This document shows positions 29,912 to 63,983 of a stretch of 64,000 nucleotides of DNA, piece by piece. A program made the translations under genes and the position numbers. This DNA comes from Astrocystis sublimbata (taxonomy: Eukaryota; Ascomycota; Sordariomycetes; Xylariales; Xylariaceae): the NCBI GenBank assembly GCA_022453515.1, contig JAJNNY010000012.1:372001-436000 (forward strand), in the 5' to 3' direction. The first letter of the stretch is position 1. Each line of letters begins with the position of its first letter. Below the pieces are notes generated by a model. It did not search any database and was not told the DNA's origin. It worked only from the letters and a program-made list of their open reading frames with translations.

Positions 29912-29917
29912 AAAAAA
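29912..29917 (-). terminator. Pol III terminator candidate (T6)
   Basis: Six T on the minus strand, about 43 nt beyond the tRNA 3' end. A 17-bp palindrome (TTCCAGTT-G-AACTGGAA, 29930-29946) lies between, so the primary transcript would carry a small hairpin trailer. Confidence 0.5.
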
Positions 29918-29959
29918 TTGGGTTGCTGTTTCCAGTTGAACTGGAAGCATCAGGAATTG

Positions 29960-30087
29960 AGCCCGATGCGGGGGTCGAACCTATGAAAGTTGTTAACATC
30001 TAGGTGGGCAGTGGTACATGGCGAAGTAGACTTACCCGCAACCTTGAGATTAAGAGTCTCACGCTCTACCGATTGAGCTAACCGGGC
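29960..30087 (-). tRNA. tRNA-Lys(CTT) with split T-arm
   Basis: Read on the minus strand, positions 30087-30036 give the acceptor strand GCCCGGT, D-arm, anticodon arm TGAGA-CTCTTAA-TCTCA (anticodon CTT, lysine), variable loop AGGTT and the first four T-stem bases GCGG. Positions 29980-29960 give the rest: T-loop, CCCGC, ATCGGGC and discriminator T. Joined, they form a perfect 73-nt tRNA with all four stems paired (one G-T in the acceptor). There is no intron at the usual 37/38 site. Instead 55 nt interrupt the T-stem (see the separate entry). Both internal promoter boxes survive: A box around TAGCTCAATCGG and B box GGTTCGACCCC, the latter borrowing the final G of the insert. Confidence 0.85.
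29981..30035 (-). other. GT-AG intron-like insert in tRNA T-stem
   Basis: On the minus strand the 55-nt insert begins GTAAGT, has GTTAACAA (TTAAC branch-like) about 15 nt before the end, and ends TTTCATAG. These match the spliceosomal introns in this window in length, donor, branch and spacing. Exact removal restores the T-stem pairing GCGGG/CCCGC. No bulge-helix-bulge or tRNA-endonuclease-type placement is evident. Whether it is spliced is unknown; it could also mark a dead tRNA copy. Confidence 0.75.
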
Positions 30088-62892: not shown

Positions 62893-63749
62893 CTTCAACT
62901 GGGCGCAATAGTTGGAAAGCAGAGTATTCGATGATGGATAGAAATGTGAGTTGTTAGATTGCTAGCAGCAATGAGACAGACACCAATAGTGAGCGGTGAC
63001 AGTATGCGCAACCACTGGATTGGGTTTAAAGGCGACGGTAGATCGAGGGTGGTGGAAACAATGGGAAGAAAGGAAATGCGCCTTCATCAAGACTCAGACG
63101 CGACATAGAGTACGTGCAGTGTCAGCTGCTAAAGTTCCAATTTCTTACCGCAGTGAATGCTGGAAGGCTACAAGTATCTTTGTACAGAACTAAGCCCAAC
63201 CTGGCCTGCCTGGATGCATGGGCACTGGGCGCTGGGCACTGGGCAGTCACTACAGGTGGTCACTACCCTCAATCAGGAACCTTCCTAGGTAGGACTCAGC
63301 TAGGTATCTACTACTAGACAGGACCTACCAACATTGGCACAGATCACGATATGGCCGCAAGGAAACATGCGTATATAGTACATATATGCATACCACCTGG
63401 TAGCTTCAAGGGTCACAGCTTCTAAACAAATCTTGAAGTTCCTACATCGGCTGAACAACATGATAGCCTTGCCAAATTTGCCGGCATCAGCCTACGTTAC
63501 TGGTATGCAATCAAACCATTCAATTCCCAGCCATGGAAGGAGTGAATTTCCAATGGAGCCAACAGTACATTAAGCAAGCACATCAACCATGCATCATCAA
63601 CTCTACGCTTGAGTACCATAATGCGTGAATATGTCCATCCTCATTCATAGCGTGCGTGCCCTTGTCACATTCAAGTGCAAAGGGAGAGATTTGTCTTCTT
63701 CGAAACGCTGGACAAGCCAAGCGAAGCAACGAAAACAACAACGGAGTTC
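62893..63749. other. intergenic, RPB3 promoter side
   Basis: About 0.86 kb between the RPB3 start and the 3' end of the U2 gene, both on the minus strand. A TTCCTAGGTAGG site lies at about 63282-63293. No gene supported. Confidence 0.5.
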
Positions 63750-63934
63750 GCGTCGCCTGGAGGCAGTGTAATACCAGGGACACGGTGAAGGCGATCATGC
63801 GCAAGCACAGAGGATGCGCCTTCTAAGGATAAAAATTAGAATAATCACGATTGAGTCCAAGTAGGACTCTTTCAGAGATTAAACTGAAAAGAACAGATAC
63901 TACACTTGATCTAAGCCAAAAGGCAAAGAGAGCT
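63750..63934 (-). ncRNA. U2: U2 spliceosomal snRNA
   Basis: On the minus strand the 5' part reads CTCTCTTTGCCTTTTGGC then TTAGATCAAGTGTAGTATC, containing GTAGTA (63903-63898), the strand that pairs with intron branch sites. TGTTCTTTTCAGTTTAATCTC and the Sm-type AATTTTTAT follow. The 3' stem-loop IV, CCTGGTATTACACTGCCTC..CAGG, matches the conserved U2 end. Termini are estimated (about 185 nt). U2 base-pairs with the branch point in pre-mRNA splicing. Confidence 0.93.
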
Positions 63935-63983
63935 AAAGAAGAAAGGAAAGAAAACCGAGGGCAAAGGTGGGAGGGGAGCGAGG

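Follow-up and report, generated by a model that had tools for sequence, protein, structure and literature searches.

Can a nuclear tRNA gene carry an intron of the kind found in pre-mRNA, and can such a gene still be a working one? This question is raised by a tRNA-Lys(CTT) locus in a 64,000-nt stretch of Astrocystis sublimbata DNA (hereafter, the window), for which the initial annotation proposed a T-stem split by a spliceosomal-type intron. Fungal tRNA introns normally lie next to the anticodon and are cut by the tRNA endonuclease. As read from the sequence, the 73-nt gene occupies 29960-30087 on the minus strand, and a 55-nt insert separates its positions 52 and 53, which lie in the T-stem when standard numbering is counted from the sequence. 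The Rfam tRNA model bore out the proposed split, matching exactly 29960-30087 with 52.3 bits, insert included; ARAGORN, run in one mode on the window, called zero tRNAs. The junction can be drawn in four registers (51/52 to 54/55), and GT-AG ends are obtained at 52/53 only. The locus is composed of the following features, in which the A and B boxes are named by their consensus.

30036..30087, minus strand: exon 1 (52 nt), tRNA-Lys(CTT) positions 1-52, comprising the 5' strand of the acceptor stem, the D arm, the anticodon arm with CTT, the variable loop and T-stem positions 49-52; the same in 8/8 gene copies
30069..30080, minus strand: A box TAGCTCAATCGG, an internal Pol III promoter element by resemblance (motif match within exon 1)
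29981..30035, minus strand: putative spliceosomal-type intron, 55 nt, GTAAGT...CATAG, between positions 52 and 53
30030..30035, minus strand: putative 5' splice site GTAAGT
29992..29997, minus strand: branch-site-like GTTAAC, with the candidate branch A at 29993, 12 nt ahead of the intron end
29981..29983, minus strand: putative 3' splice site TAG
29971..29981, minus strand: B box GGTTCGACCCC, formed by the last G of the intron and by exon 2
29960..29980, minus strand: exon 2 (21 nt), tRNA-Lys(CTT) positions 53-73; the same in 8/8 copies
29930..29946, minus strand: 3' trailer hairpin TTCCAGT-TCA-ACTGGAA, with a stem that paired changes preserve across the seven distinct loci that were compared
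29912..29917, minus strand: T6 run, Pol III terminator-like, the first run of at least four T after the gene

The B box therefore spans the intron end and exon 2, and the earlier observation that the last G of the insert completes it was correct.

The genome of this xylariaceous ascomycete (42.6 Mb in 189 contigs, with the window belonging to contig C24) was searched for further tRNA-Lys(CTT) copies, as had been suggested for this locus. When a 25-nt stretch of exon 1 was searched at no more than three mismatches, nine places matched genome-wide, namely eight full genes and one damaged fragment. An identical 73-nt product is specified by all eight genes, five of which are interrupted at the same place and three of which are intact.

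L001 (the window gene): insert of 55 nt
L002 and L003: insert of 60 nt, identical in both
L004: insert of 67 nt
L005: insert of 61 nt
L006, L007 and L008: intronless, 70.3 bits each

L002 and L003 share 99.7% identity across 3.2 kb and were counted as one locus, so the five interrupted genes represent four independent loci. The score of the three intronless genes is the top of the genome-wide Rfam tRNA list (63 of 1291 candidates scored), compared with the 52.3 bits obtained for the same 73 nt when interrupted in the window. The joined exons fold as a standard cloverleaf and share the high covariance score by identity to the intronless genes. The joined sequence GCGG|GTTCGA, proposed as a junction to look for in reads, would for the same reason be indistinguishable from RNA of the intronless genes. 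L006-L008 also have approximately 260 nt in common; this shared part takes in a 5' flank, approximately 130 nt upstream of the genes, in which a hairpin may form. A counterpart of this flank was looked for at the interrupted copies, and none was found.

The interrupted copies were handled poorly by standard tools. The Rfam tRNA model matched L002 and L004 only partially, and ARAGORN with introns allowed assigned the L005 gene (L035, tRNA-Lys at 1813-1947) a spurious intron of 49 nt at position 38. Genes such as L005 can thus hide in annotations as ordinary tRNA genes, and with the window locus missed by ARAGORN, these cases indicate a blind spot of tRNA finders. A dedicated search with a T-arm-intron pattern, which by design could not detect the variants of L001 and L004, gave five places (L002, L003, L005, L091, and L092) versus four for the backward control, and no tRNA was seen by eye in the flanks of L091 and L092. 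The exact exon-1/donor pattern had zero matches in viral contigs, as expected.

The four distinct inserts have the ends of U2-type spliceosomal introns with a fungal-type donor. The donors are GTAAGT, GTAAGC, GTGAGT, and GTAAGA, and the acceptors are TAG, TAG, CAG, and TAG, so that GTRAG and YAG are each present in 4/4. A branch motif of the form RCTRAY, 6-36 nt before the acceptor, is exact in three of the four, each of which also has RCTRAC, and the looser motif [CT]TRAC is found in all (GTTAAC in the window, then ACTAAC, ACTGAC, and ACTGAC), with the A at distances of 12, 12, 12, and 14 nt from the intron end. The window motif, one letter off RCTRAC, is the weakest of the four. According to the available part of PMC5832005, fungal introns have RCTRAY and YAG, and the mean branch distance in U3 introns is 15 nt. 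The joint occurrence of donor, branch motif and acceptor in shuffled sequences was 2.9e-6, 6.4e-6, 3.4e-6, and 7.6e-6 per locus, figures that are products of separately measured fractions from shuffles preserving base composition alone, with the relaxed branch pattern [CT]TRAC chosen after the window copy was known. Taken with the interruption of tRNA-Lys(CTT) at one place in five of eight genes, these figures represent more than chance. The distinct inserts cannot be aligned with one another: the best of the six pairwise alignments scored 1.7 SD above the mean of its shuffles.

Pre-mRNA introns in the window provided a local standard. The proteasome alpha-2 gene contains introns of 49, 55, 86, and 137 nt, as determined by a spliced alignment whose scoring rewarded fungal intron signals, and the mitochondrial PheRS gene contains one of 96 nt, placed by an exact match to the Astrocystis sublimbata protein. 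These introns (49 to 137 nt) are of the same kind as the insert, in agreement with the resemblance noted earlier. An introner-like origin of the insert, which had also been put forward, was not supported. The four inserts with flanking exon letters were searched genome-wide for near-identical copies of the introner type, and the matches were confined to tRNA-Lys(CTT) loci and a decayed copy, L087. An introner-like mobile origin was rejected because no recent introner family was present among these matches; the search was insensitive, in that the L002 insert query missed the related L087, and old, diverged copies may escape it.

The exons behave very differently from the inserts. Across the eight tRNA-Lys(CTT) genes, 73 of 73 exon letters are constant, whereas the inserts do not align. 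This pattern suggests that the exons of the interrupted genes are under selection; because dead exons would drift as the inserts do, yet no exon letter differs, the interrupted genes are unlikely to be dead. Gene conversion among the copies could help to hold the exons alike, yet it should also tend to erase the introns. The same genome offers a contrasting case in L087, a degenerate interrupted copy that resembles the L002 gene, insert included. Its exon 1 is identical at 46/52 letters and its exon 2 at 7/9 aligned letters (12/21 unaligned), and its intron is identical at 26/32 aligned letters (28/60 unaligned). In its donor, GC stands in place of GT, and the D loop carries an insertion. In the trailer, 37/39 aligned letters are kept (13/52 unaligned), and the decay of L087 is therefore recent. 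L087 has thus lost exon letters as well as intron letters, in contrast to the constant exons of the interrupted genes. The fragment recovered with the eight genes, L047 (G000:C189:45823-45847), is a damaged piece of tRNA-Lys with CTA at the anticodon place and lies approximately 0.2 kb from an intact gene.

Conservation also extends beyond the tRNA. The sequence TCAATTCCYGRTGCYTC is located directly 3' of the tRNA in 8/8 genes, and in seven distinct loci a hairpin, followed by GCAAC or ACAAC, precedes a T-run. The first run of at least four T occurs 42-54 nt past the tRNA in 7/7 loci checked, and the longest T run in any of the four distinct inserts is at most three T. This arrangement, with no long T run in the inserts and one behind the tRNA, fits Pol III transcription. 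Six trailer stem pairs are standard in 7/7 loci (the stems of L007 and L008 are identical), and four of the six are changed on both sides, two of them through L001 only, in a register set by hand from the stem base without a shuffle control and on which the changes in the two innermost pairs depend. The MAFFT alignment of the trailers misplaces the L001 hairpin. Exact genomic matches to the 17-nt trailer start were found at tRNA-Lys(CTT) genes only, and two places with one mismatch had no tRNA by eye; with up to three mismatches, there were 646 places versus 380 for the backward control. Such a trailer was absent from four other tRNA loci inspected by eye, and Rfam returned no match for it. 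Because the intronless genes carry the trailer too, it does not belong to the intron itself. The trailers of L001, L002, L004, and L005 are distinct from those of L006-L008.

An mRNA-type intron in U6 snRNA, another Pol III RNA, had been named as a precedent, and this precedent was found in Astrocystis sublimbata itself. The Rfam search for U6 gave four matches, three of which were over the cut-off (47 of 2232 candidates scored), and two of these three carry a 57-nt insert, GTAAG...ACAG, behind ACAGAGAAGAT.

G000:C1:11589-11744: L093, U6 gene with a putative 57-nt spliceosomal-type intron
C130:152546-152701: L094, U6 gene with a putative 57-nt spliceosomal-type intron

One insert contains ACTAAC and the other ATTGAC, with the branch A 12 nt before the end, and the B-box-like sequence GTTCGAACCC is located inside. 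The fission yeast U6 intron likewise contains its B box. Because two U6 genes carry such introns, the spliceosome of Astrocystis sublimbata most likely acts on Pol III transcripts already. Among other RNAs, 38 matches to 5S (47 of 2510 candidates scored) had no intron-sized insert, and an insert was also absent from the one SRP RNA match. The third U6 match over the cut-off, L095 (G000:C135:326268-326365; 56.6 bits), is a diverged, intronless U6-like gene with the B-box-like sequence ATTCGAACC in its 3' half. A U2 snRNA gene without an intron-sized insert was observed in the window at 63742-63936 (160.6 bits). The window trailer (29959-29912) and those of the paralogues are long and structured, mostly with GCAAC before the T-run, and their end resembles the 3' end of two U6 genes of this genome, GATGCAACCAATTTTTTT.

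Several other explanations of the interrupted loci were considered. If these copies were dead, all tRNA-Lys(CUU) would come from the three intronless genes. The initial annotation had reckoned with a dead copy in case many intact genes existed elsewhere and spliced or precursor reads were lacking at this locus. Of this condition, the first part holds to the extent that three intact copies are present, and the decayed copies L047 and L087 show that such genes do degenerate in this genome. The verdict of a dead gene did not follow, since exon constancy in the interrupted copies argues against it: five interrupted genes retain 73/73 exon letters around inserts that cannot be aligned, the trailer stem is retained with paired changes, and donor and acceptor are intact in 5/5, while the decayed copies look quite different. 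On the grounds of exon constancy and the retained trailer stem, dead copies were rejected as an improbable explanation. We consider it very improbable that the inserts are instead introns of a non-canonical tRNA type, removed by the tRNA splicing endonuclease as in the T arm of archaeal and nucleomorph tRNAs. The enzyme should be present, as other tRNAs of this genome have anticodon-near introns: ARAGORN with introns allowed placed them between its positions 33 and 40 in Lys(TTT), Tyr, Pro, and further tRNAs, with isotype labels some of which look doubtful. The available part of PMC4090602 also describes T-arm introns, at position 53/54 in archaea as well as in nucleomorphs, and those of archaea depend on a bulge-helix-bulge. 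A bulge-helix-bulge of strict geometry was formed in 0/16 insert/register combinations (four inserts by four registers). A single combination, in L004, reached 4/4 central pairs, but both of its outer helices had 1/3 pairs. A bulge-helix-bulge intron was rejected because the strict fold with central and outer helices appeared in no combination, and endonuclease cleavage would leave the GT-AG ends and the branch motifs without explanation.

Alternatively, the interrupted loci might function without any splicing, for instance as boundary elements bound by TFIIIC, or as a different RNA. Their A and B boxes are intact, and the conserved trailer hairpin suggests that a longer transcript matters. 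A boundary, however, needs two boxes and not all 73 letters including the anticodon and the acceptor ends, and the splice signals would be purposeless, which makes this role highly improbable. For an assembly or contamination artefact, no supporting point was found. The four independent loci are on different contigs with different flanks, and the window PheRS is 100% identical to an Astrocystis sublimbata record; an assembly error was rejected on account of the four independent loci, and the chance of an artefact is close to negligible.

We therefore favor, with a probability of roughly 0.84, the reading that the interrupted genes are working nuclear Pol III tRNA-Lys(CUU) genes whose introns would be removed by the spliceosome, as proposed for the window gene. 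The case for a nuclear tRNA whose T-stem holds a spliceosomal-type intron is stronger than a single locus could make it, because at four independent loci the inserts, though they cannot be aligned, bear the same signals between invariant exons. Against this reading, the three intronless genes could supply the cell by themselves, and the branch motif of the window copy is one letter off RCTRAC. From these sequence features we infer a pathway of transcription, spliceosomal splicing, trimming, and charging. RNA polymerase III would transcribe the interrupted genes from the internal A and B boxes to the T-run behind the trailer hairpin, giving a precursor that would hold a U2-type spliceosomal intron of 55-67 nt within the T-stem. 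The spliceosome would excise the intron via GURAG, a branch A 12-14 nt from its end, and YAG. The ligated 73-nt product, the same as that of the three intronless genes, would next be trimmed and charged like an ordinary tRNA-Lys.

With a chance slightly short of even, the spliceosome might serve this fungal lineage as a second machine for splicing tRNA, coupling translation capacity and spliceosome activity via Pol III transcripts. In that case, most genes for the AAG-reading tRNA (5/8), together with two U6 genes, would pass through the spliceosome, and the constant trailer hairpin would be part of this precursor pathway. Teaching keeps the introns of nuclear tRNA apart from those of mRNA, each with enzymes of their own, and this tRNA family would join both. 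If the introns are spliced, spliceosomal splicing would reach Pol III RNAs other than U6 and U3, and the independent loci would let intron gain, loss, and divergence be traced in a non-coding gene.

The novelty claimed for an mRNA-type intron in the T-arm was not contradicted in the open-licence literature, in which no nuclear tRNA gene with a spliceosomal intron turned up; the available parts of PMC13148404 and PMC13130702 contain nothing on such tRNA introns. In 2017, U3 and U6 were the sole small structured RNAs in which introns were known to be frequent, according to the available part of PMC5832005. The kind of intron is known; a tRNA as its host is, as far as found, new.

Reportedly, an mRNA-type intron is present in U6 snRNA of fission yeast and other fungi. 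The tRNA-Lys case is like the fungal U6 intron in having a short GT-AG intron with a branch motif in a Pol III RNA, a feature also shown by two U6 genes here, and differs from it in that the host is a tRNA, with introns in several paralogues, each running up to the B box. In the two interrupted U6 genes of Astrocystis sublimbata, the B-box-like sequence is inside the intron, unlike in the tRNA-Lys genes. Fungal U3 snoRNA introns are similar in that a small structured RNA carries a spliceosomal intron, and eight genomes have both interrupted and intronless U3 copies (PMC5832005, available part). Unlike the tRNA-Lys hosts, U3 is not a tRNA, and in the same part of that source U3 paralogues nearly always have introns of similar sequence, whereas the tRNA-Lys inserts are dissimilar. 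The non-canonical introns of archaea, nucleomorphs, and Cyanidioschyzon likewise lie outside position 37/38, in the T arm in archaea and nucleomorphs, but the available part of PMC4090602 ties them to a bulge-helix-bulge and the tRNA endonuclease, and the strict fold is absent here. In the same part, eukaryotic tRNA introns are placed next to the anticodon and assigned to the tRNA endonuclease. Compared with ordinary fungal tRNA introns, the tRNA-Lys introns also reside in nuclear tRNA genes, but both their position and their signals differ.
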